Below are positions 3,176-25,248 of a stretch of DNA of 41,875 nucleotides, one piece after another. The stretch's first letter is position 1, and every line of letters starts with the position of its first letter. Both the position numbers and the translations under genes were made by a program. Source of the stretch: a virus; IMG/VR virus record IMGVR_UViG_3300037296_000020, positions 1-41,875 of that record; one strand, 5' to 3'. The notes below the pieces were generated by a model. The model was not told the origin of the DNA. It made no database searches and saw only the letters and a list, made by a program, of their open reading frames with translations.

Positions 3176-3689
3176 TTACATCATGCCCCGTGAGGCGTTA
3201 AGTGCATCAACTGCTGATTCTTGTCCTGCTAACTGTCCACCGCCACCAGCGCCTTGACCCATTGCTTGAGCTTGCATCTGGCTAGCTGCACTAGCTTCTG
3301 CTTCTGCTTCTTGCATCTGTATCATTTCTTCTTCAGTGTACTGTAGTGCTGTAATATCTACACCATTAGCTGCCATGATGAACTCTGCAATAGAGTCTAG
3401 CTTCCACTTCTTGGATAGACCTAAACCTGTAAAGGCTGGAACTACCGCGTTAATCTCTGAAGCTGCAATCACTAAGTTCTGGTTTTCAGATGAGCGTGAT
3501 AGTGCTTGTAGACCAGTTAGAATGTTTAGACTAATGTTACCACGGTCAATATCATTAATGATTGTGGGTTCTTCTTCATGTAGCAATAAATAAGCTAGTG
3601 GAAGGTGCATGTTCTGACTGAGTTGTGAGTACACACCACCTAAGACTTGCTCTGCTTCCTCAGCGTTCTGTCGAATCTCATAAGCCGTT
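3176..3689 (-). CDS. Portal (head-tail connector), exon 2
   Basis: This is the 3' part of the portal gene after the group I intron. The open frame before the first ATG reads TAYEIRQNAEEAEQVLGGVY and continues SQLSQNMHL, which is the normal portal continuation after the GERV of exon 1. Joining 5710-4665 to 3689-3176 gives 1,560 nt, 519 codons plus stop, the usual size of T7-like portals. The C-terminal tail is rich in Gln, Ala and Gly. Starting the protein at the internal ATG near 3634 would discard conserved residues and lacks a good ribosome site, so an independent gene is unlikely. Confidence 0.88.
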
Positions 3690-4664
3690 CCTTTATATTC
3701 AACTGGGTTCGTTAATTCCCAGCCCGTTCTCTTATGAACTGCTGCATGTCCCCATGCAGAGTAGACTAAATCTTGTACTTACAATAAGTACTTTAGTGTT
3801 TCGAGTCACTTGACCCTACTCCCTTTCGGGATAGTCGTTACAATCATTTCTTGGCTAAACGTATATTGCGTATATGAGCGTACGCTGTACCACTTGCGAT
3901 GTGGTTTAAATCTAAGTCTGTTAGTAATGCTTTTATAGATAAGCCTGTAGTACCACCATGCTGACGCAGACGGTGCATATTAGCTTGGAGTACTTCACTT
4001 TCTTTGTCTGTAATAATCTTATTGTGTACAGGTAAAGGTTCACGCAGTTCGCCTGTAGGATTGACTGCAATAGGAATATCACCTGATAGGGCGACTTTCC
4101 AAGTCTTACCTCTACGGATGTGTTTAATAGCGGTAAGCGACACAGGGAGCTTTAACCTATCCCGTATCTGTCTAGCAGTTAAGTCACTATCTTTTAAAGC
4201 ATGTACTTGCTGTGCTTGCTCAAGTGTAAGTTTAGATGTACCTATATCTGTACCGTACTGCCCACGATGCTGTAATTGCTTACGACTTTGTATTACGTTG
4301 GTACTATGAGTTACGTACTCTAAGTTATTAAGGGCATTGTTGTACCTATTTCCGTCAATGTGGTCAATAGTATAACCGACTGGGCATGTACCTACAAAGG
4401 TTTCCATAACTAGCTTATGAATTAAATAGAACTTATCTAAATGTGCTTTCACGTAACGGTTCTTACGTGTGATGGTAGTGCCTCGCATAGCACGACCTGT
4501 TGAACTGTTATATACGACACCATTAGTGTCAATCTCATATTTACTGTTTAGCTTAACTTTCTGATACATATAAATCTCCGTATCGTTAAAGTTGAAATTA
4601 TCACGGTATTATCTGTTCGAGACTTCCACCGTTTTAACTAAATTTTATAAGGGCTGTTATTTTA
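3690..4664 (-). ncRNA. Group I self-splicing intron in the portal gene
   Basis: The 975-nt insert breaks the portal frame. Exon 1 ends AAGGGT, and 10 bases into the intron GCCCTT can pair with it, ending in the U-G wobble that defines a group I 5' splice site (P1). The intron ends in G (AAAGG before exon 2 AACGGC). The 3' core on the minus strand reads ACGACTATCCC, GAAA, GGGAGTAG, CAAGTGACTCGAAA and later AAGATTTAGTC, matching the P7/P8 signature of T4-type introns (P7 pairing GACTA/TAGTC, GAAA-capped P8). A hairpin CTGCATG/CATGCAG fits P9. An HNH gene occupies the middle. Splicing restores GERV-TAYEI in frame. Confidence 0.9.
3844..4569 (-). CDS. Intron-encoded HNH homing endonuclease
   Basis: A 241-residue protein inside the group I intron. 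Residues about 1-40 look like a NUMOD4-type N-terminus (KYEIDTNGVVYNSSTGR). An HNH centre follows at about 65-100: HKLVMETFVG, then TIDHIDGNRYNNALNNLEYV, with the D-H pair and downstream N residues of the fold. The C-terminal half has helix-turn-helix-like segments (LTLEQAQQVHALKD, LTARQIRDRLKL) for target binding. Its role would be to cut intronless portal genes and spread the intron. GGAG lies 6 bases before ATG. It is bounded by 95 nt of 5' core and 154 nt of 3' core. Confidence 0.92.
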   Translation of the reverse strand: MYQKVKLNSKYEIDTNGVVYNSSTGRAMRGTTITRKNRYVKAHLDKFYLIHKLVMETFVGTCPVGYTIDHIDGNRYNNALNNLEYVTHSTNVIQSRKQLQHRGQYGTDIGTSKLTLEQAQQVHALKDSDLTARQIRDRLKLPVSLTAIKHIRRGKTWKVALSGDIPIAVNPTGELREPLPVHNKIITDKESEVLQANMHRLRQHGGTTGLSIKALLTDLDLNHIASGTAYAHIRNIRLAKK

Positions 4665-5710
4665 ACCCTTTCGCCATCTCTATTATTGCCCGTGTACATG
4701 AAGGCTACATCTAATCGAGCTTCTACTTGCTGTAGGTTCGCATTAATCTGCTGAATCTTCTGCCAATCACCACCCTCGTAAGGTGCAACCATATTAGGGT
4801 CACCTTGGATGTAATCGCCACTCACAGCATCATTAGCTGCTTGTGTATCAAAGATACCTGCGGGGTTAACTAAGTGGAGTAAGCGTAAAGATTCAAATTC
4901 ATAGTCAGCTAGTGACTTATTCATTTCAGATAGCTTGTATAAATCAGCAGCGTAGTCCTCTACATAACCACGACCATAGTTATCGCCATTGACGAAGTTC
5001 CATGTTACGGGGATGTACGGGCATAGCTTATTGCGGTATACTACATCTGTACCAATATCCTCACCATTAATCTCTTGTGTTACCCGCCAAGACTTGTTAG
5101 CTTGGAGTTTACAACGTGTGTACATCTTTACAACGTGGTCTACTGGGTGTTGCCCAATAAGTACCTGTACATTTTCTGGTAATTCTTCATAGAACTTTTC
5201 TTCACATATAACTATGTCTAAGACTTGTCCTACGTTATTGCGTTTAACTACATAATCGCGTAGACTGTAGACTCGAATAGCCTCATCAACACGGTGTAGT
5301 AAACACTCTCCTGTAATAATCAGTAAGCGTAACGCTTGTACTAATTGTGCGTAGGAGGCGTTTAAGAATATACGAGCACATGCTCTGTTCTCATACTGGA
5401 TGATATCATCAATCTGTTGCTCTTTGAACAAGTCCTTGAGTTCATCATTTACTTCAATACGAAAAAAGGATGTATTAGCAGGGAACAGTGTTCGAGCTAG
5501 TTTCGTAGCCAGTCTGTTCACAACTAATGCACCCTTACTTTGGCAGTCATATTCAATCTCTGCGTTATTGTATTGCCCTGCACTAACATCCTTTGGAAAC
5601 ACAGATGGGATAGTCCAGAGGGCATAACTCTCTAATTTGGATAGTAACACATCATCACGGTACTTGCTGTACAATGTTTTGTGTGACTGTTTTAACTCTG
5701 GATTAATCAT
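4665..5710 (-). CDS. Portal (head-tail connector), exon 1
   Basis: The first 348 codons and two bases of the portal gene, T7 gp8 type. It starts MINPELKQSHKTLYSKYRDD and carries family blocks such as KGALVVNRLATKLARTLFP (about 59-77) and the exon-end MYTGNNRDGERV. Twelve portals form the dodecameric ring at the head vertex for DNA entry and tail docking. Read straight through, the frame ends shortly inside the intron (KITALIKFS, stop at 4634), so unspliced RNA would give a truncated 358-residue product. It follows two small genes and precedes scaffold, as in phiKMV-like phages. Confidence 0.93.
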
Positions 5711-6043: not shown

Positions 6044-6238
6044 CTATTTACTATTCTGTCGGATTCGTTCGTAGTACAGACTTTCAATACGCTTTACTAC
6101 TCTACGTGAACCTTGGCTACTAAATAACTCGTCAGCAGTAGCATTAATGTTTGTATTCTCAGGGAATGCTCTATTCAACCACTGTACCTGTTCTAAGGTA
6201 AATGCTGGTACTGTATTCTGTAATTTAACTGCACCCAT
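6044..6238 (-). CDS. Hypothetical protein, first gene of the structural operon
   Basis: A 64-residue soluble protein (MGAVKLQNTVPAFTLEQVQW...) with alternating charged helices and no motif I recognise. Its ribosome site (AAGGAG, 8 bases from ATG) is 3 bases beyond the TATAAG end of the promoter-like module at 6250-6295, so a phage-polymerase transcript would start almost at this Shine-Dalgarno and have a very short leader. Many T7-like phages have a small gene of this size ahead of the portal. Confidence 0.75.
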   Translation of the reverse strand: MGAVKLQNTVPAFTLEQVQWLNRAFPENTNINATADELFSSQGSRRVVKRIESLYYERIRQNSK

Positions 6239-6249
6239 GATTATATCTC

Positions 6250-6295
6250 CTTATACGTCCGACTTCTGATTTAAGCTATACTTATCATGTACTTA
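6250..6295 (-). promoter_or_regulatory. Candidate phage RNA polymerase promoter A (structural genes)
   Basis: Minus strand: TAAGTAC, 21 nt, then AGAAGTCGGACGTATAAG. The 18-base core is identical in four places in the genome and the TAAGTAC box is always 28 bases upstream of the core start. The core ends in a TATA-type melting element followed by AG, as T7-class promoters do. This copy lies between the RNA polymerase region and the structural genes. The first three bases of TAAGTAC are the stop codon of the small membrane protein upstream. Confidence 0.72.
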
Positions 6296-6472
6296 CGGGA
6301 TTAGAGGAACCAGTAGTAGAAATGGCATGAAAACCAATAATAAGAATACAACTGCACTGATAAAGTACATACCAATAAGTATAGGTATAGTCAGTACAGG
6401 GACAATTAAATCCCTACACTGTTTGAACTTAACCTTATGTAGTAAGTCTAATACGTAGTCTAAAAATGTCAT
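6293..6472 (-). CDS. Small two-helix membrane protein
   Basis: A 59-residue ORF with GGGAG 6 bases before ATG, starting 12 bases after the RNA polymerase stop. A charged N-terminus (MTFLDYVLDLLHKVKFKQCR) is followed by two hydrophobic stretches, about residues 22-45 and 46-58, ending LLLVPLIP. Its stop TAA is the start of the promoter-like module. The function is unknown; an inner-membrane location is likely. Confidence 0.65.
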   Translation of the reverse strand: MTFLDYVLDLLHKVKFKQCRDLIVPVLTIPILIGMYFISAVVFLLLVFMPFLLLVPLIP

Positions 6473-6483
6473 AGATTCTCCCG

Positions 6484-8961
6484 TTAGCCGAACATATAGC
6501 GTGCTTCAAGTACTGCATCTAAGTCTAGGTTGCCCTGCTCAGGTATTTGATATTCCCCTTTATCTATATTGTTCGAGTCTAAAAATGCTTCCATATCATA
6601 CTGTGAGTACAGTGTCACAAAGGTACTGCGTAATGAAGTGTGCATTGCTGCTACGTCAGATGGGTGTGTAGCGAATGAGTCATGGATAGGTAGTATGTCA
6701 CCATCAAAGTCATTGATAGTCATACATAGGTGGGCTGCATCATTAGAGTGCACAAAGTTTGGTACGATACCGTTACTAGCTATACGGGTATTGTACTTGT
6801 TATCACGTAGGGTGAATACAATCTCAACTACACCCATTGAACGTATCTTGATAACTTTAACCTCAGAACCTTCTGCCCAATTCACTACAGGCACACCTAC
6901 AGGACTTACCCACTGCATACAGTGCTCTTTGTGCTTACGTACAAGCCCTTGCAAGTACTGCATCATACGGGTAGCTTCTGGTACAGTTGCTATAACTCCT
7001 GCACGCAATGCCTTACCAACTGGGGTAGCTAACGCTGGCAAGCTGTAAACTACCTTACCGTCGGCGCCCTTAATCACATCCATACCTGAATCAGCCATTT
7101 CTAAAGCAATAGTGTCGATAGTACTTAATAGCGTACTACCGTATACATAAGTCATCACTGGTGTCTTAGCCATGTTACGGCTGATAGGTGTCTCCTTCCA
7201 GTAATGTTCTAACGTAGCGTCATGAACTACGTCTGTAACCTTACCGTCTACACGGGTCTTACGTGTACTGTACTCAGCTTTGTTAGCATCTGCAATAGAG
7301 GCTACGTGAGTATAGATATCAGACTTCTGCTCAGTACCATTATCTGTTAAGTTCGTATAGTACGCACCTACTGGGTCACGGGTTAGTGCTGATAGATGTT
7401 GTAGACCTGAACAAGTCGCATCCATAGCTACAGGTACGTGGCAGATGTAGTCACGTGGGTCTGGCATTGCCAATGCTTCTTGTAATGCTAAACCTGACTG
7501 CAATAACGTAAAGGCTGTATCTGCCTCTGGTGCATCTACTTCTAAAGGATTGTTAATAAAATCAACAATTTGTACCCAGTTATCGTCTGTCCACTTAGCT
7601 TTAATATCAGGGTCATGTTTATCAAAACCACAGCAGTTAGCCACATAGACTTTCAACCATTTCAGACCATCTTCACCTAAACGTTTACCATTAGCGAACT
7701 CAATACAACCTTTCACTGCATCTGAGGATTGTGGGTTCAAGTTACTACGGAAGTACAAGCGTCCACGCCAATCAATGAACGTCGGGAAGTATAACTCCAA
7801 CTCATCTTGGTAGCGAGATAGCTCTGTGAGTCTACTTAGGATACCTGTGTGACGACCTTTACGTTTGTTCTCAGAGGTATACCATGCAGCCATTTGAGTT
7901 TTCCAGAACTGGAACTGCTCAAGCTCATTAAGAGTAGCCTCATCCTTCTGCCAGTTATCACCTAAAGGGAACTCAGGCTGGACTAACGGTTGGAAGGATG
8001 GTAAGCCTAGGATACCCACACGCATAGCTGTAGCCTTGCGTAGTATAGCCAGCACGTCCTTATTAACTCTATAAGGTACTGACTGTGCTTTAGACATGGC
8101 AGCACGCACAGGGGCGCTTGTAGGGCTACCTAGTGTCTCAATAACCCACTGCTTGTGTTCCTTCTTGATGAAGCGTAGACCACACATAGGTGCATGGTGA
8201 CGGAACCACTCAGTCAGATAACCACCATCAAACTGATTCTCCCAAGCCATAGGCTTAATCAGCATAGGTGGGTGACGTACGATAGCACGTGCTGCACTCT
8301 GTACCTCTTGAAAGTGCTTAGCGAGTTCGTCAGAGGCTTGTAAGTAGTACATAGATGAACCAGTACTGTATTGGTTAGTACACCACTTGAATAAGCCTGT
8401 AGCCTCGTATAGTACAGTAAGTAACAATCTAGCTGTACTGATACGTTCAGGTAGTGACCACTGCTCCCAGTCCATACCCATGTTACGGGCACCAGCTAGG
8501 AATGTTCTGTATCGATGATTAACTGATTTAGTACCTGCTGAATCTAAGTACTCTACCGTTCTATCCGTATAACGACCGTTCACTTGCTCCATAGTCGCGA
8601 GCATACATTCAGATTCAATTACACGTCCGATACTACGGATAACATCCTGCATAGGTTGAGGTTCAGGTTGAGCACAACCATTGATAACCTCACGTAAAGC
8701 AGCCATTACCAGTACGTCTGCTGCTGCACCATGAAGTAACTTACGGTACTTGCCAGCTAACCCTGAAGCCTTCTTCTGTAAGAACGCTTGGAAATGTACA
8801 AGCCCAGCCCCATAAGCCTTAGCCAGTAATATACGACCTGCACCTACATCTGCTGCACGTCCTTGTTTAAAAGCATCAAGGATTTGTTGTTGTCCAGCGA
8901 TTAGACTATTGGTAGAGTATTCTTCTTCTAGTGCTATCTGCTTACTGTACAGGTCTGACAT
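6484..8961 (-). CDS. Single-subunit DNA-directed RNA polymerase
   Basis: An 825-residue T7-family polymerase that would transcribe middle and late phage genes. Catalytic motifs are present: first aspartate D514 in MDATCSGLQH, motif B RNMAKTPVMTYVYGS with K599 and Y607, and second aspartate D761 in IHDSF. The C-terminus ends RYMFG, compare the FAFA 'foot' of T7. Length is close to the 880-residue T7 enzyme, with a shorter N-terminal half. AGGAG precedes ATG by 6 bases. It is the last gene of the replication block, directly before the structural genes, the arrangement of phiKMV-like phages, and is downstream of candidate promoter B, which would give positive feedback. Confidence 0.97.
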   Translation of the reverse strand: MSDLYSKQIALEEEYSTNSLIAGQQQILDAFKQGRAADVGAGRILLAKAYGAGLVHFQAFLQKKASGLAGKYRKLLHGAAADVLVMAALREVINGCAQPEPQPMQDVIRSIGRVIESECMLATMEQVNGRYTDRTVEYLDSAGTKSVNHRYRTFLAGARNMGMDWEQWSLPERISTARLLLTVLYEATGLFKWCTNQYSTGSSMYYLQASDELAKHFQEVQSAARAIVRHPPMLIKPMAWENQFDGGYLTEWFRHHAPMCGLRFIKKEHKQWVIETLGSPTSAPVRAAMSKAQSVPYRVNKDVLAILRKATAMRVGILGLPSFQPLVQPEFPLGDNWQKDEATLNELEQFQFWKTQMAAWYTSENKRKGRHTGILSRLTELSRYQDELELYFPTFIDWRGRLYFRSNLNPQSSDAVKGCIEFANGKRLGEDGLKWLKVYVANCCGFDKHDPDIKAKWTDDNWVQIVDFINNPLEVDAPEADTAFTLLQSGLALQEALAMPDPRDYICHVPVAMDATCSGLQHLSALTRDPVGAYYTNLTDNGTEQKSDIYTHVASIADANKAEYSTRKTRVDGKVTDVVHDATLEHYWKETPISRNMAKTPVMTYVYGSTLLSTIDTIALEMADSGMDVIKGADGKVVYSLPALATPVGKALRAGVIATVPEATRMMQYLQGLVRKHKEHCMQWVSPVGVPVVNWAEGSEVKVIKIRSMGVVEIVFTLRDNKYNTRIASNGIVPNFVHSNDAAHLCMTINDFDGDILPIHDSFATHPSDVAAMHTSLRSTFVTLYSQYDMEAFLDSNNIDKGEYQIPEQGNLDLDAVLEARYMFG

Positions 8962-8970
8962 ATAAGGCTC

Positions 8971-9624
8971 CTATAATTTACGGATGCTATGGGCGTGTTG
9001 TTTGGCTGCACGTTCTAAATCTTCTAAAGTTGTATCCACATCGTTATCTAGCAGTGACATACAGGGCGGTAAATCAAGCCCAACATCGTACTCTAAATCC
9101 CATGCTAAGTGTTCAGAGGTATGTGTAGGTTTAGGTACACCTACTGCACGCATAACTAATATGTTATAATCACAAAGCTCATTCTCAAAGCGCACATCAG
9201 CCACGATGAGATTAGCGTCCTTGTTTTGCAAGTAGTCTACCCATGCAGCAGGTTTCACAGCACGTACTACATCCGTACCAACTCGCTGCTGGAACTCTCG
9301 TGGTGAGATAGCGCTAGCTGACCCGAGGTGTTCAAAGTATAGTTCAGAAGCCTTATCAAGCTCCGCATCTGTAAATAACAGCACACGGTCTAAGCAGTGG
9401 TACACAGAGTGCAGCATGTCGTCACGATTAACCTGCTGAGGGCGCTCCTTGAACACTCTGTCCTCCAGTTCTTCTAGGGTACAACCGTAAACTTTAGCAG
9501 TTAACTCTTTAAGCGGGGCTGCATAACGGTCAATAGTGAAGTCCGTTAGGTACTGCTGTAACAGCGTTGCGAAGGTGTCTTTACCAGCGCCAGCTAATCC
9601 TAAAATACCTACTTTAATACCCAT
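8971..9624 (-). CDS. Deoxynucleoside monophosphate kinase
   Basis: A 217-residue P-loop kinase of the T4 gp1/T5 dNMP kinase type. The N-terminus MGIKVGILGLAGAGKDT holds the Walker A (residues 8-16). A conserved central block TDVVRAVKPAAWVDY (about 117-131) and IVADVRFENE (about 140-149) match the family's substrate and lid region. It phosphorylates dNMPs from degraded host DNA for phage synthesis. AGGAG is 6 bases from ATG. It sits between a 22-codon membrane peptide and the RNA polymerase. Confidence 0.87.
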   Translation of the reverse strand: MGIKVGILGLAGAGKDTFATLLQQYLTDFTIDRYAAPLKELTAKVYGCTLEELEDRVFKERPQQVNRDDMLHSVYHCLDRVLLFTDAELDKASELYFEHLGSASAISPREFQQRVGTDVVRAVKPAAWVDYLQNKDANLIVADVRFENELCDYNILVMRAVGVPKPTHTSEHLAWDLEYDVGLDLPPCMSLLDNDVDTTLEDLERAAKQHAHSIRKL

Positions 9625-9633
9625 ACTAAGCTC

Positions 9634-9702
9634 CTATATTTTTAAAGATAACCAGAAAACTAAACAAGATAATACTACTAACATTATACGATTAAATACC
9701 AT
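9634..9702 (-). CDS. 22-residue hydrophobic peptide
   Basis: The ORF reads MVFNRIMLVVLSCLVFWLSL then KI, a single membrane-spanning peptide. GGAG lies 5 bases before ATG, the stop overlaps the ribosome site of the dNMP kinase, and it fills the gap between two genes exactly. Tiny membrane peptides like this are common fillers in T7-like genomes. Expression is likely from the ribosome site; function is unknown. Confidence 0.5.
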   Translation of the reverse strand: MVFNRIMLVVLSCLVFWLSLKI

Positions 9703-9710
9703 ACTAGCTC

Positions 9711-10646
9711 CTAATGATTAGCGTCGTAGACCTTCTGCATGTACTCTAATGATACAGGTGAAGGTAAAGCAAAGCCGTCTTTAACCTCAGTGAGCATCAC
9801 ACAGCCTCGGAAGTGATTGTTGCCTGTGAAGCCCTTATAGCCTTCATCATGCTGGTAACAGGCACCAACGATAACACCAATCTGGTGCTTACCATCTAGC
9901 GGTGTAGGACGTAGTGCAATATCAAGCACCTGCTTATGCCCCATCACAAAGGATGTACCACAGTTCTTTAGGATGTTCTGGACAGTACCACCATAAGGCT
10001 TACCAGTCATAGGGTTAGGTACAAAGTGAATGAAGTTAATACCATGAATAGATACAGGCTTCAGGAACGGATGTACTTCCCAATCACCGTTACCGAACTC
10101 AAGTAGCTCAGTACCCATATAACCTTCCAGCTCGGGGTGCTCTTGTACAAAGCGGTCAATGCGGTGCTCATGATTACCTAGTGTTACTACCTTACGAGGC
10201 TTGTAACCCTGCACCTTAGCAATCTCAGCATCAATTAGGCGGATACCTTCATCACCTGCCTCGATATCCTCACGTACACGTTTACCTTCTGCCTTCAGAG
10301 TACCTTTATCATAGCTAGATAGGCTCTGCATGTCATAGTGGTCACCTATATGTACAATGATATCAGGCTTCTTACGTGCAATGTAATGCCCAATCCATTT
10401 CAAGTACGCTAGGTCAATACCTTGCTTGACTTGTGTATCACCAATGACAAAGATAGTAGGTAGACGTTTCTGTGCTTCAATGACTGCTCGTGGGTACTCG
10501 GAACCTAGTCTCTGCACGATACCATAACACGTGTCATAAGCGATACCAGTCTGGGCTGCAATCTGATTATAACTCAGACCTTGTAAATTATAAAGCTCAA
10601 GGACTTTCTGTTGACTGAACTTTAATTTACTGTAATGCTTACTCAT
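9711..10646 (-). CDS. Calcineurin-like metallophosphoesterase with N-terminal HTH
   Basis: A 311-residue protein. Residues 1-50 contain a helix-turn-helix-like segment (LQGLSYNQIAAQTGIAYDTC). The rest is a metallophosphoesterase with the metal motifs in order: GDTQ (69-72), GDHYD (101-105), GNHEHR (157-162) and GH (236-237). It would hydrolyse a phosphodiester or phosphomonoester with two metal ions; substrate unknown (nucleic acid or nucleotide). The start at 10646 is chosen because GGAG lies 6 bases upstream; an upstream in-frame ATG at 10658 lacks this. It overlaps the preceding gene by 8 bases. The DNA-binding front end hints at action on DNA ends or branched DNA, but that is inference. 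Confidence 0.85.
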   Translation of the reverse strand: MSKHYSKLKFSQQKVLELYNLQGLSYNQIAAQTGIAYDTCYGIVQRLGSEYPRAVIEAQKRLPTIFVIGDTQVKQGIDLAYLKWIGHYIARKKPDIIVHIGDHYDMQSLSSYDKGTLKAEGKRVREDIEAGDEGIRLIDAEIAKVQGYKPRKVVTLGNHEHRIDRFVQEHPELEGYMGTELLEFGNGDWEVHPFLKPVSIHGINFIHFVPNPMTGKPYGGTVQNILKNCGTSFVMGHKQVLDIALRPTPLDGKHQIGVIVGACYQHDEGYKGFTGNNHFRGCVMLTEVKDGFALPSPVSLEYMQKVYDANH

Positions 10647-10872
10647 ATATTGCTCCATGCCAAGTGATGTTATTTATGATTTGCTCAGGATAGCGTGGGT
10701 AGTGATTCTGAATACCACTGTGCTCTGGGTGTTTACATAGCACTGTTACCTTCTTCTTCCCGATACTGGTTACCACCCCCTTCTTGAGCCACTGTGGGGA
10801 ACCACCAGCAATGATAACCTTCTGTCCCAGCTCTAACTCTAAACCATTAAAACTTTGCATAGTAGTACTCAT
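10639..10872 (-). CDS. Hypothetical 77-residue protein with small beta-barrel character
   Basis: The sequence runs GLELELGQKVIIAGGSPQWL then KKGVVTSIGKKKVTVL, a spacing typical of SH3/KOW-like small barrels. A His-rich tail follows (CKHPEHSGIQNHYPRYPE). GGGGAA precedes the ATG. It lies between endonuclease VII and the metallophosphoesterase and overlaps the latter. It could be a nucleic-acid-binding accessory protein; no name is justified. Confidence 0.7.
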   Translation of the reverse strand: MSTTMQSFNGLELELGQKVIIAGGSPQWLKKGVVTSIGKKKVTVLCKHPEHSGIQNHYPRYPEQIINNITWHGAIYE

Positions 10873-10873
10873 A

Positions 10874-11326
10874 TTATTTCCCCGTAGTCTTACGTTTAGC
10901 CATGGCTGTCTTAGCTTTTGCAGCAGCGTATGCTTTACGTCGTTTAAGTTTAGTTGCCTCAGCCTTCTGCTCAGGTGATTTATGGTCAGGATATTCTAAG
11001 CCAGTACCATTCTCAGCTACGTAATCGTAGTAGGCGACCACTTTCTTTAGGTAAGGTATAATATCCTCGTATTTCATAGACTTAGCACCCCACCTACCAG
11101 CAGCGTTATCTATTTTTCCAAGAGCTGCGTTGCATGACCTGTGTAGAACTCCGCGCACTTCCCCTGATTCATGACAATGGTCTACGACGTAGGCACTGGA
11201 ACGTCCTTGTGTACGCACATCAACTTCCTTCTCACATACTAAACAAACACCACCTTGTTTTTTAAGTAGCATCATAGTAACACTGTAGAGTTGTGACCTA
11301 CTAATTTTATTCAAGGGTCGCGACAT
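10874..11326 (-). CDS. Recombination endonuclease VII-type Holliday junction resolvase
   Basis: A 150-residue His-Me finger nuclease. The zinc knuckle and catalytic region read CLVC (28-31), VVDHCHESG (47-55) and RGVLHRSCNAALG (58-70), the signature of the endonuclease VII family (T4 gp49). It resolves branched DNA and debranches concatemers before packaging, replacing T7 endonuclease I. The Lys/Ala-rich C-terminus is probably a DNA-binding tail. AAGGAG is 6 bases before ATG, and this ribosome site lies inside the last codons of the upstream HNH gene, which overlaps it by 20 bases. Confidence 0.92.
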   Translation of the reverse strand: MSRPLNKISRSQLYSVTMMLLKKQGGVCLVCEKEVDVRTQGRSSAYVVDHCHESGEVRGVLHRSCNAALGKIDNAAGRWGAKSMKYEDIIPYLKKVVAYYDYVAENGTGLEYPDHKSPEQKAEATKLKRRKAYAAAKAKTAMAKRKTTGK

Positions 11327-11750
11327 GATGGACTCCTTTAATTACACGATGTATCTGTGATGCGCCTACACCAAACTGTCTAGCTAATGCTGGTAGACCG
11401 TGTTCACGGGAGTTCTTACGATATGAGGCTCGTATAGCACGTACATTCTCTGGGGTTAGCACTGTCCTACCGTTAGCTGCACCAAAAGTTCTAGTATCTC
11501 CCTGCCGTCCACGTTCTTTACAATCCCTCATATTATCCACATGAGTACCCCCTTCTAAGTGCTCAATATTAATACATCTAGGGTTATCACACTTGTGTCT
11601 AACTACCTCAGGTAACTCACCAGTAGCCTCATAGAATACTTTACGGTGCCGTGTACTGCTATATTTCTTACCGCAAGGTAGTTTAATCCACGCTGTAGCG
11701 TAACCTAAACCGTAACCTTTACATCCGTGGTCTATACATGCATCTAACAT
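11307..11750 (-). CDS. Free-standing HNH homing endonuclease
   Basis: A 147-residue protein with an HNH centre VVRHKCDNPRCINIEHLEGG (about 49-68) followed by THVDNMRDCKERGRQ. A C-terminal helix-turn-helix-like segment (ALARQFGVGASQIHRVIKG) would recognise the target. The family (T7 gp5.3/7.7-like free-standing HNH) cuts related genomes lacking the gene and so spreads by repair. AGGAG is 5 bases from ATG. It is inserted between exonuclease and endonuclease VII, and its 3' end carries the ribosome site of the latter. Confidence 0.88.
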   Translation of the reverse strand: MLDACIDHGCKGYGLGYATAWIKLPCGKKYSSTRHRKVFYEATGELPEVVRHKCDNPRCINIEHLEGGTHVDNMRDCKERGRQGDTRTFGAANGRTVLTPENVRAIRASYRKNSREHGLPALARQFGVGASQIHRVIKGVHHVATLE

Positions 11751-11758
11751 ACGTACTC

Positions 11759-12742
11759 CTATTCAAATAATTGAGCGTACTGCTCTGTACTCATATCGTT
11801 GTACTCATCTTGTGTTATACACCACTTACGGTTATAGAAACAATCTTCTAAGAAGGCTTTATTCTCAGACGTTAACTCATTACTTGTGAGGTACTTATAT
11901 ACGTTATCCTCACGGTTACGCAACAGCCACATTGCCTGACCTTCTGGCACGGGGTTTTGGTCTATGATACGGTAACCATCTAACACTATATTGACTGCCT
12001 CATGCTCACAAGTAACATGCTCTAGGGCACTCAATGCGCCTACCATACCACATAACTTATTATCTAACTTCAAGATACCTTTCACATTATCAGCAGTATC
12101 ACCCATCAACATTTGAGCTAAGAAAAAAGCAGTACCCTTACCTACGCACTTACTGTTCAGCTTACCAGAAGGCGTGTTCCAATCCTTACGTGCTATCCAA
12201 CCAAAACGCTCACCCTCAGGTAGCGCAATAAACTTACCTGTATCTGTCATGTACTGCTCTTTAGGGCTGATTAATAAATCCTTATCAGCACTTACTAGAA
12301 CACCATTAGACATACTGTAATGGTCTGACATTAAACCATCATCCGCCTCTATATCATAATGTGCAAGAACTTTAATATCTGGATGGTCACGGAAGTACAG
12401 CTCGGCTGTGTCTCGTAGAGGCTCTAACATTTCAGGCTTCTTACCACTCTTACGGTTAGCTTGGTAAGGTTGGGCACCCAGTAATAGATGCCTGTTATTC
12501 TTTAAGCAGCCTCTAGGGGTTAGGTGAACACGTGCTGTGCTACACTTGGCTAAGAACATCATAGTTAAGATATCCTTCTCTAAGCGACGTTGAGCTGTAG
12601 GTAAAGTCCTAACACCTGCTGTCTGTGCATAGCAAGCAATGTCACCATCGTATAGCAGCACACGGTCATCTGAACCACTAGGCTTGAACATATTAGAGGT
12701 TAGTGTCTCTTGCGAGATACCGAAGTTCGCCATGTTAATCAT
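11759..12742 (-). CDS. 5'-3' exonuclease (T7 gp6 type)
   Basis: A 327-residue FEN/PIN-fold nuclease. Acidic motifs appear in the family order: LLYDGDIACYA near residue 28, HYDIEADDG near 126-134, VLVSADKDLL near 147-156, and LMGDTADNVKG near 210-220. This is the flap-nuclease pattern of T7 gp6, which removes RNA primers and degrades host DNA. GGGGAG is 7 bases before the chosen ATG; a second ATG three codons in is the alternative. It lies directly before the HNH and endonuclease VII genes. Confidence 0.9.
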   Translation of the reverse strand: MINMANFGISQETLTSNMFKPSGSDDRVLLYDGDIACYAQTAGVRTLPTAQRRLEKDILTMMFLAKCSTARVHLTPRGCLKNNRHLLLGAQPYQANRKSGKKPEMLEPLRDTAELYFRDHPDIKVLAHYDIEADDGLMSDHYSMSNGVLVSADKDLLISPKEQYMTDTGKFIALPEGERFGWIARKDWNTPSGKLNSKCVGKGTAFFLAQMLMGDTADNVKGILKLDNKLCGMVGALSALEHVTCEHEAVNIVLDGYRIIDQNPVPEGQAMWLLRNREDNVYKYLTSNELTSENKAFLEDCFYNRKWCITQDEYNDMSTEQYAQLFE

Positions 12743-12893
12743 CTAAACGCTCCCCACAGAAATCACACTCAACTCTACCAGCTAATACATGACCGCAGTT
12801 ACCACAGGCACGTAGAGATTGCTCACGTTCCCAAGCCAAGTGCTCTAACGCATCGTCATCGTTGAAGTCATCAGCAGTATGTTCAAAACTCAT
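12735..12893 (-). CDS. Small zinc-ribbon protein
   Basis: A 52-residue protein with an acidic N-terminal half (FEHTADDFNDDDALEHLAWE) and a C-terminal zinc ribbon CGNC-x11-CDFC. The start at 12893 is used because GGAG lies 6 bases upstream; an ORF start 16 codons earlier has no ribosome site. It overlaps the exonuclease start by 8 bases. It is probably a regulator or adaptor in DNA metabolism; the function is unknown. Confidence 0.75.
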   Translation of the reverse strand: MSFEHTADDFNDDDALEHLAWEREQSLRACGNCGHVLAGRVECDFCGERLDD

Positions 12894-12933
12894 ATTGTTC
12901 TCCAGTATATTTATAAGAATAAGGTTGCTAGTA

Positions 12934-12953
12934 CAGGGCACCTAAGCACCCTG
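12934..12953 (-). other. Intergenic hairpin downstream of the SSB-like gene
   Basis: Minus strand CAGGGTGC TTAG GTGCCCTG forms an 8-bp stem (two wobbles) with a 4-base loop and no following T-run, so it is more likely an RNA-processing or mRNA-stability element than a terminator. Confidence 0.4.
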
Positions 12954-12989
12954 CCTAACATTAGGTACTACTATTTAGAACTGGATATC

Positions 12990-13862
12990 TTAATCATCAA
13001 GCTCAGGTACAGCAGGTACAGTGCCCGTAGGAACCTCTGTAGGAACCTCTGGTACGTCTGGAGTAGCTTCTGGTGCCGTAGGTAGCTCAGGCATCGTGTA
13101 CTCTGTACCTAGCTCACTCAATAGAACCTGCAATGCAGAACCCTCAAAGTCAACAGCAGCGAGACACTTCTCTTGTAAGAAGTTCTTAGAACGTGCAGGA
13201 TACTTAACCTCACCTGTTTTCTCATCTTTAACTTCATCCCATGCACCTTCAATATGGATACTATTCCACATCGCTTCACTTGGTTGGTTCCACAAGAACA
13301 CTTGGATATGTTCTTCTTTAAGCTCTGCTGCTTTACGTGGTAGACCTGTCTCTTGGTCTAGGGCAACCTGTAGTGCTGCGAAGTCAATGTCCTGTACAAC
13401 CTTACCTACGTTACGCCCACCTGTAGCAACCTTATGACCAATAGGTAGGGCATACAAGCATTGCTCTTGTACCTTCTGTACGAAGTGAGTAGCCTTGTTA
13501 CCTACACGGTTAAGGGCATTGAAGTACTTAACAGCCTTAGCCTTCTCATGTAAGCTCATGGTTGTATCAAAGGTAGTAATCATAGGGTACTTACCTTCTT
13601 CAAGTACGTACTTCTCTGGTGTACCATCTTCTTTAAGACCTACACCACCAACAATCATAAAACCTAGTTGGAAGATAGGTGCTGCTGGTTTAGCCTGACC
13701 AGCAAAGGTTTGGATATGTGAACCGAACTCGATGTACGAGCACAGACGTACTAATGCAGTACCTTTAGGTAGAAGTCCACGACCACCGCCACCAGTTTTA
13801 ACAGCAGTCATGTCAGATAATTGGTCTACGTTTACAGATGCAATCGCGTTTAGAATACCCAT
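12990..13862 (-). CDS. Putative single-stranded DNA-binding protein
   Basis: A 290-residue protein starting MGILNAIASVNVDQLSDMTA with a Gly run (GGGG) near residue 24. The C-terminus is a long Pro/Glu tail ending VPAVPELDD, resembling the flexible acidic tail with which SSBs bind polymerase and helicase. It is the first gene after candidate promoter B and sits between DNA polymerase and exonuclease, where phiKMV- and SP6-like phages keep an abundant protein of this size often called SSB-like. The central region should be an OB fold, but this is not evident by eye. AGGAG is 7 bases from ATG. The assignment rests on tail and position. Confidence 0.6.
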   Translation of the reverse strand: MGILNAIASVNVDQLSDMTAVKTGGGGRGLLPKGTALVRLCSYIEFGSHIQTFAGQAKPAAPIFQLGFMIVGGVGLKEDGTPEKYVLEEGKYPMITTFDTTMSLHEKAKAVKYFNALNRVGNKATHFVQKVQEQCLYALPIGHKVATGGRNVGKVVQDIDFAALQVALDQETGLPRKAAELKEEHIQVFLWNQPSEAMWNSIHIEGAWDEVKDEKTGEVKYPARSKNFLQEKCLAAVDFEGSALQVLLSELGTEYTMPELPTAPEATPDVPEVPTEVPTGTVPAVPELDD

Positions 13863-13912
13863 AAGTTATCTCCTAGTAATTAATTAGTTTATTTGTTTAG
13901 AGCTTGTACGTA

Positions 13913-13958
13913 CTTATACGTCCGACTTCTATTTAAAGTCTTTGTTTACAAGTACTTA
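13913..13958 (-). promoter_or_regulatory. Candidate phage RNA polymerase promoter B (nuclease/RNAP block)
   Basis: Second minus-strand copy of the module: TAAGTAC, 21 nt, AGAAGTCGGACGTATAAG. It is the only clear signal in the gap between DNA polymerase and the SSB-like gene. The TAA at its start is the stop codon of the DNA polymerase gene. It would drive SSB-like protein, exonuclease, endonuclease VII, kinase and the RNA polymerase itself. Confidence 0.72.
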
Positions 13959-16289
13959 GTGTACATGGTTCTTAATAGCCATACTAGCACCTTGCTCAGC
14001 TTGTGCTGGGAAGGGTACAACATCATAGCCCCACTCTTTTAGTGCAGGGATACACTCAGACAACCATCTAGGGGTGTCCTCCATAATCTCCCGTACTACC
14101 ACAGCAGCCTCAATAGCAAGCTCCTCTGTAGCAGCATCTAGGTAGATTGCATCATGTACAGTATTGATAAGTTTAACCTTACCATTGAAGTCGTTACGCT
14201 TCAGGAACTCTCTAGCAACACGACCACAAGCAGCCTGTACAATGAATGAAGCCTCACCTTGGCACCAGTAGTTAGCTATCTGGGTATCTTTGTAGTCTAG
14301 GACTTGCTGCCCTTCCCGCCATTGATTGTACTGTCGGAATGAGTAAGTGGTGCCAGACTTGGCTTGGAACGTTCCACGTCTGTAGATACTCCAGATACCA
14401 GCGTCACTGACTTCACGTTCAGGTAAACCCATAAGACCAGTACTCTCAACTTCTGGGCGAACAACCTCAGTAGGGTACGCATTGGATTGTGGGAACAGTT
14501 TGAACTCAATAGCCTTAAACTCCTCCGCTTCTTCAAGTGAGCAACCAGTGCTATATGAAATACCTGCTGCTGATGCACCGTACTGGTGGGCAAACGCCCG
14601 TGGTTTAATAGCGGTACGCATATTGGAATACCGTGCGTGCTCTGGGTGCGTCGCATCCTTACAATTCGCTTTGACTTCATCGTAATCCTCTCCTAATTTA
14701 GCTGCTAATCTGTAGCAGTGCATGTCGATACCTTCAGTAAGCATCTTCATGAGGTTGCTGTCGCCTGATATAGCAGCCAGTGCTACTACCTCCAGTGCAG
14801 AGTAATCAACCTCCACAATGCGCCCCTCAGACCCAAAGCGTGAAGTAAACATTTCCTTAACACGAGACTTCATATTACCTTCATCATCTTCATCTGCACG
14901 AGGTAGGTTAGTCATGTTAGGTCTAGTACCGCTTAGACGGGCTGTGATGGTAGCACAGTTATTTAAGTTATGGTGAATGATACTATCTGGCTCAACGAAC
15001 TGAAGCATACCCGTCACGTCACCATTAGCCTTCTCCATACGGTAGTACGTACCCGTATCCTTCTGTAGTGTAGCCAGTTGCTTGATAGGCTTAGCTACGT
15101 CAGTGAAGCTAGCTAGGATATCTAGTGAAGCTGCACCTGTACTGTAAACAGGGGTGCCACACGTGAGGTCACGCTTGCCCTTGAACTCTGCACGCTTGCC
15201 TAGGTACTGCTCAGATACGTGCTTAGGAAGTTCCTTGAGGTTAATTAAACCCTTGAACGTATAAGCATCTTTCTCCCATTTTAATTTCTCAGTAGCACTG
15301 TCCACTAAGAACTCTTTAGGCTTACCTTTATTCTTCCCCGAAACATAACGCACCAGATTAAGATAATCCTCTAGATTATCAGGAGCCTGTGCTATAGGGG
15401 TGTACACATCAGGCGAACCTTTAAATAAGTAACAGTTAACCTTCTCGAACTTAACAGGGTTATACGGTACTTTCTTACGGTACTTAATATCCCCACCAAA
15501 CAGGAACGCAGAACGATGGTACGCACTCGTGAACGAGAACTCTAACTCCTCTGGTAGGTCAGGGGGCAACTGCTTTAAGATGTTGTCCTGTAACCCCTCA
15601 ATAGCTTGTAGCTGTACTGCTAAGTTCTTCTCCGCAATAGGTTGGTTAACATATAACCCATTAAATGTAGCGATAGCATTGAACAGTAAACTATCCATAC
15701 GTATCTGAAACATCTTCCACATACCTCTACGCTTTAGCTCAGCTACCTGCTTGAAACATACACGTCGAGTATTCGCTATGTCACCATGTACATCATCACA
15801 TAGATAACTAAGTAGAAGTTCTTTATCGATATCAGCGGTGAGTACACCTTGCCCCCATAGAATCTTAACTTCATCAATCTTCTTAACGTCATGCTCACTC
15901 ATACCTTCATCACGGTACTTAACACTACAATCTTCTAGTGTAGGGTACTGATTAGTATGGTTACTTAGTAGAAATTCCGCATACTGGCTGCAATATAACC
16001 GACCACCTTGTTTAACCCAATCGAGTATTACATCTTTATGTCTATGTAACAACCAATGTAGTTCAAACGTAGCATTATGAGCTACGTATATCTTCTGACC
16101 TACTAAGCTATCAGCTAACCAAGTAGATGAGTCTGCTTCTTCTTTACTATCAAAGTACTTATGCTGTACTTCACCATTATCAATACACCAACCTGCTGCT
16201 ACTACATAGTTATCAGGACAGAACGGGGAAGCTACTGCCCCGAACCACTTATGATTCTGTGTCTCTAAATCATTTATATACCAAGACAT
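13956..16289 (-). CDS. DNA polymerase, family A with 3'-5' exonuclease
   Basis: A 777-residue T7 gp5-type replicative polymerase. Exonuclease motifs: NDLET (6-10), HNATFE (71-76), YLCDDV (162-167). Polymerase motifs: RLSGTRPNMTNLPR (451-464), motif A VEVDYSALE (D495), motif B RTAIKPRAFAHQYG (R558, K562, Y570) and motif C VHDAI (H712, D713). Length exceeds T7 gp5 (704), with extra sequence between exonuclease and palm. GAGG is 8-9 bases from ATG. It is the first gene after candidate promoter C and is followed by promoter B. All catalytic residues are present, so it should proofread and synthesise. Confidence 0.96.
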   Translation of the reverse strand: MSWYINDLETQNHKWFGAVASPFCPDNYVVAAGWCIDNGEVQHKYFDSKEEADSSTWLADSLVGQKIYVAHNATFELHWLLHRHKDVILDWVKQGGRLYCSQYAEFLLSNHTNQYPTLEDCSVKYRDEGMSEHDVKKIDEVKILWGQGVLTADIDKELLLSYLCDDVHGDIANTRRVCFKQVAELKRRGMWKMFQIRMDSLLFNAIATFNGLYVNQPIAEKNLAVQLQAIEGLQDNILKQLPPDLPEELEFSFTSAYHRSAFLFGGDIKYRKKVPYNPVKFEKVNCYLFKGSPDVYTPIAQAPDNLEDYLNLVRYVSGKNKGKPKEFLVDSATEKLKWEKDAYTFKGLINLKELPKHVSEQYLGKRAEFKGKRDLTCGTPVYSTGAASLDILASFTDVAKPIKQLATLQKDTGTYYRMEKANGDVTGMLQFVEPDSIIHHNLNNCATITARLSGTRPNMTNLPRADEDDEGNMKSRVKEMFTSRFGSEGRIVEVDYSALEVVALAAISGDSNLMKMLTEGIDMHCYRLAAKLGEDYDEVKANCKDATHPEHARYSNMRTAIKPRAFAHQYGASAAGISYSTGCSLEEAEEFKAIEFKLFPQSNAYPTEVVRPEVESTGLMGLPEREVSDAGIWSIYRRGTFQAKSGTTYSFRQYNQWREGQQVLDYKDTQIANYWCQGEASFIVQAACGRVAREFLKRNDFNGKVKLINTVHDAIYLDAATEELAIEAAVVVREIMEDTPRWLSECIPALKEWGYDVVPFPAQAEQGASMAIKNHVH

Positions 16290-16325
16290 TTGAGTATCCT
16301 CTGTTGTTTATATCGTTGTTTATAT

Positions 16326-16371
16326 CTTATACGTCCGACTTCTGATTTAGTCTAGCGATATCAAGTACTTA
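16326..16371 (-). promoter_or_regulatory. Candidate phage RNA polymerase promoter C (DNA polymerase)
   Basis: Third minus-strand copy: TAAGTAC, 21 nt, AGAAGTCGGACGTATAAG, in the 117-nt gap upstream of the DNA polymerase gene. Outside the core, this copy also shares TTGATA and TAAATC with copy A. The leader from TATA to the ATG is about 40 nt. Confidence 0.72.
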
Positions 16372-21160: not shown

Positions 21161-21227
21161 AAACTTTATCTCCAACATTTGTAGGCATTTGGTAGTAGCA
21201 GCCCACGGTAAGCTACATAAAATAGGG

Positions 21228-21305
21228 TACTCTGTGTGGGATTCGAACCCACGTTTTTTTTTTGGGACAGCGCCCAATGTCCTAGTCTCGCTAGACGAAC
21301 AGAGT
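21228..21305 (-). tRNA. tRNA-like element, anticodon not assignable
   Basis: The minus strand folds as a cloverleaf. The acceptor stem ACTCTGT/ACAGAGT is 7 perfect pairs with discriminator A. The D-arm region TCGTCTAGCGAGACTAGGAC resembles tRNA-Glu/Asp types. The T-arm GTGGG-TTCGAAT-CCCAC is perfect. The anticodon arm is abnormal: TTGGG/CCCAA leaves only a 6-base loop (CGCTGT), or GGACA/TGTCC leaves an 8-base loop (TTGGGCGC, which would expose GGG). The variable region is a run of about eight A's plus C. CCA is not encoded (CCC follows). It may be a real but odd tRNA, a decayed one, or a tRNA mimic. The A run could also hide a sequencing error. Confidence 0.6.
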
Positions 21306-21318
21306 ATATTTAGACTTG

Positions 21319-23182: not shown

Positions 23183-23242
23183 GGTTATTCCTTATATTAT
23201 GCTGGATTGCATACAACATAAACCCCCTAGAAGTCTATCTTG

Positions 23243-23275
23243 TATGCAAGCCCATAACTGGTACAGGCTTGCATA
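23243..23275 (-). other. Leader hairpin before the first early gene
   Basis: TATGCAAGCC and GGCTTGCATA form a perfect 10-bp stem around a 13-base loop, about 60 nt upstream of the first early ATG. No T-run follows, so RNase III cleavage, mRNA stabilisation or translation control are more likely than termination. Confidence 0.5.
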
Positions 23276-23601
23276 TATCCATTAACGTAGGTAGCACGCT
23301 GTATATTGAGAGCTGCTACGCCCTTTACCAACATACGAGAAATGTTGTTAAATAGTGTTTAACCCAAGCTGATAACAAGATACTACTACCTCACGAGCTA
23401 TGTTAGCGTTATATACGGTCAGTCATCACATGATGCTTACTGGTGATATGGTGCTGTATACATTAGACGTGTAGTCGGCGGTAAGTACAGGCTATCAAGT
23501 TGTTTAAATAGTAGAGTTATCAACATCGTCTGTTAACAACTGTATAACGTGACCTTATTCTATATCGTCCTATATACTGCTACAGGCATAAGGTGTATGC
23601 T

Positions 23602-23666
23602 GTTAAGGGACTAGGTATTGGTTGGCTTTATCAGTGTGCTAGAAGCCTGACCTTGTGTCCCTTAAC
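23602..23666 (-). other. Inverted repeat at the predicted 5' end of early mRNA
   Basis: GTTAAGGGAC and GTCCCTTAAC are perfect 10-bp arms separated by 45 nt. The predicted start of the most downstream early promoter is only a few bases upstream, so this RNA would begin with a closed stem, a common 5' stabiliser. Confidence 0.45.
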
Positions 23667-23675
23667 TTGCTTACT

Positions 23676-23703
23676 ATCTTATCATACTTTATCAGTATGT
23701 CAA
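23676..23703 (-). promoter_or_regulatory. Host sigma70 early promoter 3
   Basis: Minus strand TTGACA (perfect -35), 16-base spacer, TAAGAT (-10, 4 of 6). It faces the early genes. Confidence 0.65.
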
Positions 23704-23785
23704 ACTCTAAATTGTAACTGGTTTGTAAGTAGTAAGCAGTGATTTTAAATAGTGTACTAAGTAGTCGTCCTACCCAGTGATTCCT

Positions 23786-23813
23786 ATTATACAGCCTTAT
23801 CTACCCTTGTCAA
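23786..23813 (-). promoter_or_regulatory. Host sigma70 early promoter 2
   Basis: Minus strand TTGACA, 16-base spacer, TATAAT: both elements match the consensus fully. It faces the early genes and is the strongest of the three on paper. Confidence 0.85.
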
Positions 23814-23925
23814 TACCTTATTTAAATATTATTTAAACTATTTAATAAGTAAGTAAATAAGCTGTTATATAGTGTAGCTAGCCTCATCGGTCTAGCTGGT
23901 CGCTGTATGTTGCTGCGATAGGTGA

Positions 23926-23954
23926 ATGATAGAACATACGTACAAGCATGTCAA
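23926..23954 (-). promoter_or_regulatory. Host sigma70 early promoter 1
   Basis: Minus strand TTGACA, 17-base spacer, TATCAT (5 of 6). With the next two it forms a tandem triplet like A1-A3 of T7. Confidence 0.8.
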
Positions 23955-24090
23955 ATACTATTTAATAAATAAGTGCAATAAGATGAAATTAATTAATAAT
24001 CCCTGCTGAATCAAGGGCTTATAAGCCTAAATAGTTAAGTGGTTGATTTATATAGGATTAATCTACTAAGCAATCGTATTTCAAATCATA

Positions 24091-24136
24091 TAAGTGTATG
24101 ATTATAAAGGGATTAATCAGAAGTCGGACGTATAAG
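24091..24136 (+). promoter_or_regulatory. Opposite-facing copy D of the phage promoter module
   Basis: Plus strand: TAAGTGT, 21 nt, AGAAGTCGGACGTATAAG. The core is identical to copies A-C and the upstream box (5 of 7 bases matching TAAGTAC, followed by ATGAT as in copy A) is at the same distance. It points away from the early genes, toward the terminase end, with no gene on that strand. Confidence 0.65.
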
Positions 24137-24162
24137 AAATAAAGAAATAAAGATACCGAAGG

Positions 24163-24839
24163 ATACCTAAAGCTATGTTATATAAGTATACCTAGGCAAG
24201 TACAGATAGACGATGCATAAGGATAGGCAGTAGCTAGCTAAGGATACCTATAGCTATAGATAGAACGCCTGCGTGTGAATACCATAGTACGATATGAATA
24301 TCAATACATAATACATATAAGTACACATAAATAAATCTATACATACCTTATCAGTAGGATACCTAGCATACCGTATTAGTACATACAAGCGATATAATGT
24401 AAAGATATCTATATATATACTTATATAATAGTAATAGCCTAGCAATCCCTTATATACCAATACATCGGTACAATAGAAGATACACAGATATATCAATTTG
24501 ATGAGATAGAATACTTCTGATGCAATGGTAGCTGAATGATATACAATAGCTTAGAACGCAATACAGAGCGATATAGAACCTATTGACTTATATCATAGAA
24601 GTATGCTAGGAATCTCCTTAGAAGTCCCTGTACTATTGTTATAATGAAGTCAAGAGTATTCATTACTATCCTATCGATTAGCACAATAAGACAATAAAGG
24701 CAAGCCCACACAAGTATACATACAATCCAGCGCTACCCTATAATATCCTAGGATACTACTGAGTTACTCTATGTTATACCTATCTATATACCTATCGATA
24801 CCTATATAGTTATACTAATGTACTCTATGATATACCTAT
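24163..24839 (+). repeat. Dispersed ATACCT(A) short repeats
   Basis: The word ATACCTA or ATACCTTA occurs at 24163, 24188, 24244, 24343, 24359, 24776, 24788, 24798 and 24832, always in the same orientation, with 10-12 base spacing in the 24776-24805 cluster. One copy reads CCTAAAG, the sequence of the short repeats flanking T7 genome ends. This suggests a terminal short-repeat region used in packaging or end replication; by composition alone AT-rich DNA would not favour one strand. Confidence 0.5.
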
Positions 24840-24978
24840 GATGATACTCTATAGCTTCTCATTGGCTATCTAAGCGATTCTATTAGTACATGTACACGTA
24901 TGTACCTATATAATGCTAAGGACTCGCTAGCGGTATCCTATGGCTGTACAGTGCTATACAATTAATTGATTAACTAGT

Positions 24979-25008
24979 TTGACAATGATTATGTACCTAT
25001 GCAATAAT
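24979..25008 (+). promoter_or_regulatory. Possible plus-strand sigma70 promoter
   Basis: TTGACA, 18-base spacer, AATAAT (5 of 6) on the plus strand. It would read antisense toward the 3' end of the late genes. In AT-rich DNA this could be chance. Confidence 0.3.
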
Positions 25009-25248
25009 ACTCACATGTTAAGCAATCCCAGACGTACACACAAGCATTATATGTGTACTAAGGGTTCTCAGCAGGTCTAGGCTCTAATCAGGGGCTATGG
25101 GGGAACTCGGCTGCGCTCCAGTGGGGATACCCTCTCACAAATCTCTACCAAAAATTGAGTTGTGACATAGTACTCCCCGATGGAACCTCATAGCAATAGC
25201 CACAGTACCTACGATAACTTGATGTAGATACCTTCACGATACTTAATC

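Follow-up and report, generated by a model that had tools for sequence, protein, structure and literature searches.

T7-class single-subunit RNA polymerases are regarded as needing a promoter of roughly 23 bp alone, with no further factor, and the footprints of T7 RNA polymerase reach only near -21. In the mitochondrial relative of this system, the protein TFAM bends DNA into a U-turn directly upstream of the T7-related polymerase POLRMT. Known sites for the bacterial DNA-bending protein IHF act with the multisubunit host polymerase, with recombinases and at replication origins, and the promoters at the ends of the T7 genome have been linked with replication priming or end maturation. Core promoters of the type considered here are already known. 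Specifically, three promoters each were predicted with MEME in the Friunavirus phages AS11 and AS12, where primer extension to map the RNA 5' ends is reported to have confirmed them, all predicted promoters being rightward (PMC5537680). A screen of phage polymerases paired the enzyme of Acinetobacter phage Acibel007 with the promoter CTGTACTCACAGCTCAATTT and reported all 16 enzymes with low similarity to T7 in the DNA-binding domain as non-functional (PMC11475235). A literature search that lay mostly among papers open without subscription returned no report of a distal box at such promoters, of its match to IHF, of its sharing with the T7 promoter phiOR, of an outward promoter in these phages, or of IHF acting with a single-subunit polymerase or at these promoters.

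The window, by which we mean the whole stretch of 41,875 nucleotides that was analysed, is classified from its sequence as a complete phage of Beijerinckvirinae type (Autographiviridae). Its closest relatives and its gene order agree on this placement. The main genes lie on the minus strand and run from early genes, primase, helicase, DNA polymerase, nucleases, a helix-turn-helix (HTH) phosphoesterase, dNMP kinase and RNA polymerase to portal, scaffold, capsid, tail and terminase, an order common to the Acinetobacter phages Petty, Acibel007, Fri1, AS11 and Aristophanes and to Vibrio phage VH-5. The RNA polymerase is 63-69% identical to those of Petty, Acibel007, AS11, VH-5 and Aristophanes, 46% to that of Aeromonas phage PS, 37% to that of a KP34-type phage, 30% to that of a phiKMV-type phage and 26% to that of T7; a scan of genome contigs with the polymerase alignment found no relative. 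The two window termini share 127 identical bp, which we infer to be the assembly overlap of a circularised genome. The relevant genes and the predicted promoter elements are as follows.

13956..16289, minus strand: DNA polymerase, family A (PF00476, 9e-33)
9711-10658: HTH metallophosphoesterase, encoded shortly before the RNA polymerase
6484..8961, minus strand: single-subunit RNA polymerase, 825 aa (PF00940, 2.5e-74; phrog_414, 5e-240)
16326..16343, minus strand: core promoter copy D, exact 18-mer before the DNA polymerase; relatives have orthologous sites before their DNA polymerase
16359..16371, minus strand: upstream box of copy D, TAAGTACTTGATA, perfect IHF consensus
13913..13930, minus strand: core promoter copy M, exact 18-mer before the block whose last gene is the RNA polymerase
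13946..13958, minus strand: upstream box of copy M, TAAGTACTTGTAA, 2 mismatches to the IHF consensus
6250..6267, minus strand: core promoter copy L, exact 18-mer before the structural block; orthologous to late promoters
6283..6295, minus strand: upstream box of copy L, TAAGTACATGATA, 1 mismatch to the IHF consensus
24119..24136, plus strand: core promoter copy O, exact 18-mer facing outward, opposite to the genes
24091..24103, plus strand: upstream box of copy O, TAAGTGTATGATT, 1 mismatch to the IHF consensus

The window contains the 18-mer AGAAGTCGGACGTATAAG at four places and no others; a search allowing up to 3 mismatches returned the same four sites and nothing further, against 0.05 expected in shuffled sequence. 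This bears out a preliminary description of the window, which had listed four identical modules (6250, 13913 and 16326 on the minus strand, 24119 on the plus strand), had placed the three minus copies before the structural, RNA polymerase and DNA polymerase genes, and had taken them for the cognate phage promoter. All four cores end in GTATAAG, with a TATA-like segment at -4 to -1 as in T7-class promoters; for copy D the predicted +1 lies near 16327. Copy M precedes a 290-aa gene (12990-13862) that is the first of the block ending in the RNA polymerase, and copy L precedes a 64-aa gene (6044-6238) ahead of the portal and structural block. The genome carries a single-subunit RNA polymerase together with a repeated core before its middle and late genes.

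Searches with cores alone showed that 11 further genomes or contigs have equivalent sites, and the core differs along with the polymerase between phage groups: GAAGTCGGACGTATAAG in the window and contig L006, GAAGGGACACTTATAAG in Petty, GAAGATAGACGTATAAG in Acibel007, GAAGTTACACGTCTAAG in VH-5, GAAGTTRYACTAATAGAA in Friunavirus, GAATGCTACACGTATAAG in Bhz21 and AATCATGCGTATTAA in Aristophanes. Relatives of the same type that lacked the module upstream of orthologous genes would have spoken against a promoter, and those with polymerases 63-69% identical to that of the window have equivalents there. AS11 and AS12 in particular share with the window an orthologous polymerase, the genome order and the places of the promoters, and their 20-bp core aligns with the window core. 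Because of this orthology to confirmed promoters, the modules are, as read from sequence, almost certainly promoters for the phage's own T7-class RNA polymerase. For polymerases that were unusable in screens, such modules also provide promoters that are likely to be the right ones; in the case of Acibel007, the module identified here gives AGAAGATAGACGTATAAG, unlike the CTGTACTCACAGCTCAATTT of the screen.

Upstream of each core in the window lies a second element, whose initial TAAGT starts exactly 28 nt ahead of the A of AGAAG in all four copies. In two of them it doubles, as had been proposed, as a stop codon: the TAA of TAAGTACTTGTAA (13958-13956) ends the DNA polymerase gene, and that of TAAGTACATGATA (6295-6293) ends a 58-aa ORF. 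The preliminary wording of a TAAGTAC-like box at 28 nt holds for the spacing and less well for the motif, in that the plus-strand copy reads TAAGTGT; TAAGTnnnTGATW is the better statement of the box.

We surveyed 39 core-defined promoters from 12 genomes for this box (TAAGTNNNTGATW) at its fixed register and found it with at most 1 mismatch at 28 sites and perfect at 22, compared with rates per site of 0.0015 and 0.00004, respectively, in shuffled upstream DNA. Measured from where the box starts to the first core G, the distance is mostly 28-29 nt (27-30 overall) and is often 1 bp shorter at late promoters. Among the 39 sites the box was lacking at the Friunavirus tandem late promoters, where a terminator with a T-run takes its place, and at one promoter each of Petty and contig L007, and hence not every promoter requires it; one Aristophanes site has a weak box. 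When one promoter each from seven phages was compared, pairwise identity was 1.00 for nine box positions (a value partly due to selection, since these promoters were chosen for having a box), 0.56 for the core and 0.36 for the spacer. In Aristophanes, moreover, the core differs considerably, yet the box and its distance are unchanged. The box is very probably functional, and its constancy while the core drifts with the polymerase suggests that something other than the polymerase reads it. In AS11 and AS12, where the core alone has been described, no mention was made of the box that precedes the DNA polymerase promoter (PMC5537680).

De novo promoter searches found repeated cores without the box in the phiKMV-type phage PNM, the KP34-type phage IME337 and Aeromonas phage PS, and no clear promoter repeat in Vibrio phage R28Z or Pectobacterium phage CX5; the hosts of the box-less PS, KP34-type and phiKMV-type phages also have IHF. 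A scan of viral contigs with an exact 16-mer gave one true relative, L006, and five unrelated chance matches, and a scan with box plus core gave only the Acibel007 and Petty records. At several gene promoters, inverted repeats enclose the box (L017, 19839-19866; L056, 7880-7926; L016, 11500-11549) and are perhaps the terminators of the upstream transcription unit.

The sequence of the box points to a host protein. The IHF consensus appears in a review as TAAnnnnTTGATW, in the orientation of the box (PMC10380432), and the reverse complement of the box, WATCANNNACTTA, fits the consensus WATCARNNNNTTR at every specified position in register; the four window boxes deviate from it by 0, 1, 1 and 2 mismatches. 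When the columns of the box profile were permuted, none of 4,000 permutations fitted IHF as well (p=0.00025), which made IHF the best of 24 consensi, with the next best at 0.07. An A/T-rich flank lies on the side that is correct for IHF, that of the WATCA end of the consensus: an A/T run of 5 or more is present in 30/30 spacers, and the spacers are 85% A/T against 59% for the genomes, although intergenic DNA near the end promoter already has about 70-79%, which makes the flank weak evidence for IHF. Since no HU or IHF gene was found in the phage, the IHF involved would be that of the host. Departures from known IHF sites are the G and T of TAAGT, which are nearly invariant where the IHF consensus has N and which may point to an additional contact or to some other protein, and the Y position of the consensus, which is often A in the boxes. 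On these sequence features we regard host IHF as the probable reader of the box.

As a negative control we scanned all 17 T7 promoters, and 16 of them have 3-6 mismatches to the IHF consensus at the fixed register, whereas phiOR alone has 1, with a box (TAAGTTACTGA / TAAGTTACTGAAA) starting at -43. Leaving conservation aside, the chance of one box with at most 1 mismatch among 17 promoters is about 0.025 (17 x 0.0015). The phiOR box is kept in Bas104, Yersinia phage WX2, Tarrare, Ebrios, Aeromonas phage KFSA9 and Edwardsiella phage PVN09, lies 25-26 nt ahead of the promoter in these relatives, and is a perfect IHF match in Ebrios and KFSA9; at phiOR of ICP3 we found no IHF-like match. This speaks for a separate reader of the box, since the polymerase that reads phiOR is only 26% identical to that of the window. 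What T7 shares with the window is a T7-class promoter near the genome end that has the box and keeps it in divergent relatives; they differ in that T7 has the box at 1 of 17 promoters, with phiOR facing as the genes do, while the window has it at four of four, with the end copy outward. The distal box had been expected to be unusual for this polymerase class. It is real and conserved across genera, and its presence at phiOR qualifies the expectation. Beside phiOR of T3, F2M1C, Patroon, Ayanbimpe and phiEap-1 (L073, L065, L072, L067 and L069), an IHF-like AATCA(A/G)nnnnTT lies in the opposite orientation; these matches could be due to chance, which gives one with at most 1 mismatch in 14% of search intervals.

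Other readers of the box have to be weighed against IHF. A phage-encoded DNA-binding activator might recognise it, for instance the HTH metallophosphoesterase, which every box-bearing genome checked was found to have and which is not annotated in the box-less Aeromonas phage PS, and the G and T that go beyond the IHF consensus would suit such a reader. We nevertheless disfavour the phosphoesterase and think a phage activator rather unlikely, given that its recognition helix varies widely (YDTVYG, SDRTIRD, YFTIATH) over an invariant box and that T7, which to our knowledge encodes no such protein, has the box at phiOR. The strictness of TAAGT relative to the IHF consensus would equally suit another host DNA-binding protein with a consensus near TAAGTnnnTGATW, and our comparison covered 24 consensi only; however, IHF matches in register wherever its consensus specifies a base and is well clear of the runner-up, which leaves a different host protein with a low probability. 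Readings of the box as a sigma70 -35 or extended -10 element, as a site for FNR, Fis, DnaA or CRP, or as a class II terminator gave no fit.

The polymerase itself could contact the box as an extended promoter element, with the upstream DNA bent back and no other protein involved, as the box-core distance, fixed within about 1-2 nt in all groups, might suggest. Set against this are the invariance of the box while core and polymerase diverge, the 16 T7 promoters that have no box and the short reach of T7 RNA polymerase footprints, and we consider direct contact quite improbable. Alternatively, the box could be a boundary signal (termination, pausing or a roadblock) that shields the promoter from upstream transcription instead of activating it. 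Some boxes do lie within terminator-like inverted repeats (VH-5, Aristophanes), and the terminator of the Friunavirus late promoters stands where the box would be, but the outward promoters have the box without evident hairpins and the T7 class II pause sequence does not match it (p=0.25). A boundary signal of this kind seems very improbable, though a boundary role could also be open to bound IHF and in this respect overlaps with the IHF reading.

Returning to IHF, we hypothesize that the modules are promoters built from two parts. The part nearer the start site (about -16 to +2, AGAAGTCGGACGTATAAG), which differs from genus to genus, would be read by the phage T7-class RNA polymerase, and the distal part (TAAGTnnnTGATW, about -44 to -32) would be a binding site for host IHF. 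Together with its A/T-rich side, IHF would occupy roughly -48 to -17 and abut the polymerase, and its sharp bend may wrap the upstream DNA about the enzyme and aid loading or promoter melting. Three copies would serve as promoters for the DNA polymerase, the block from nuclease to RNA polymerase, and the structural block. The remaining copy, which has additional IHF-type sites and a leader made of purine repeats, would transcribe outward through the genome end and act in replication priming or end maturation. We lean towards a TFAM-like bending of DNA by host IHF beside a single-subunit-polymerase promoter. The two systems have in common a T7-related polymerase with a DNA bender bound directly upstream, but TFAM belongs to the HMG-box proteins, has no relation to IHF and also tethers the polymerase, and the likeness is an analogy only. 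As to the effect, the choice between stimulation through bending and insulation is close to evenly balanced, with stimulation slightly on the weaker side. More generally, we tentatively suggest, as a possibility that we hold with some doubt, that this phage group has adopted IHF as a permanent component of its promoters, the bacterial equivalent of TFAM-assisted transcription in mitochondria, and that T7 employs the same device at phiOR to give this end promoter preference in replication or packaging. If true, T7-class transcription would in some phages, and at a single T7 promoter, include a DNA-bending protein of the host, which predicts in a model system that T7 phiOR depends on E. coli IHF.

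The outward promoter forms a further conserved feature of the subfamily. Copy O points in the direction opposite to the genes and lies within a stretch of 2 kb (23183-25249) where no gene is evident and which would be expected, by analogy with relatives, to hold the genome ends. Its surroundings include the following elements.

24009..24021, plus strand: perfect IHF consensus AATCAAGGGCTTA, at -111 from the outward core, first of an inverted pair
24036..24048, minus strand: perfect IHF consensus AATCAACCACTTA (TAAGTGGTTGATT on the plus strand), at -84 from the outward core
24135..24159, plus strand: purine-rich tandem-repeat leader of the predicted outward transcript, AGAAATAAAGAAATAAAGATACCGA

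Each of the ten complete genomes has an outward copy, whose box differs from TAAGTNNNTGATW at no more than 2 positions. In the five relatives with annotated terminal repeats, the outward start lies 212-335 bp inside the repeat and 519-688 bp from the left end. The promoter is thus near a genome terminus in these five, and by analogy in the window, as phiOL and phiOR are, though it runs against the direction of the genes in all ten. Similar A/G repeats follow every outward promoter, the leaders being always purine-rich tandem repeats (AATAAAG, AATAGAATAG, GATAAGATAA). The inverted pair of IHF consensus matches has the same place and orientation in VH-5 (-112/-84) as in the window (-111/-84), and 12 exact matches, about half of them the promoter boxes themselves, lie upstream of the ten outward promoters against 0.7 expected. 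By analogy with the T7 end promoters and from its location, the most likely role of the outward promoter is in priming replication or maturing the genome ends. Friunavirus has it at 663 (minus strand) in AS11 and 580 (minus strand) in AS12, and it is absent from the promoter study of these phages, in which all predicted promoters are stated to be rightward (PMC5537680).

Outward copies also appear in box-less phages. In PNM (L055), with sites at about 808 (minus strand), 20622 (plus strand) and 20808 (plus strand), TATGTCACCCACA repeats lie after the RNA polymerase gene and an outward copy with 1 mismatch lies near the left end; the outward end promoter may thus extend to box-less phiKMV-type phages. 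Aeromonas phage PS (L058) likewise has an outward copy at 36799 (minus strand). The terminal repeat of Aristophanes (L056; 1-184 and 43322-43505) is largely built from tandem copies of the 11-bp unit TTCTTCAGGAG.

Elsewhere in the window, a tRNA-like gene (21225-21306, minus strand; 41.9 bits in Rfam) has an odd anticodon that ARAGORN cannot assign. The portal gene (3176-5710, minus strand) is split into an N-terminal part (4634-5710) and a C-terminal part (3176-3634), with an HNH endonuclease ORF (3844-4569) between the two. A segment of 214 nt (3629-3842) has 82% DNA identity to Pectobacterium phages, and the interruption, which gives a weak Rfam match to Intron_gpI (19.2 bits, E 0.03), probably represents a group I intron that encodes a homing endonuclease.
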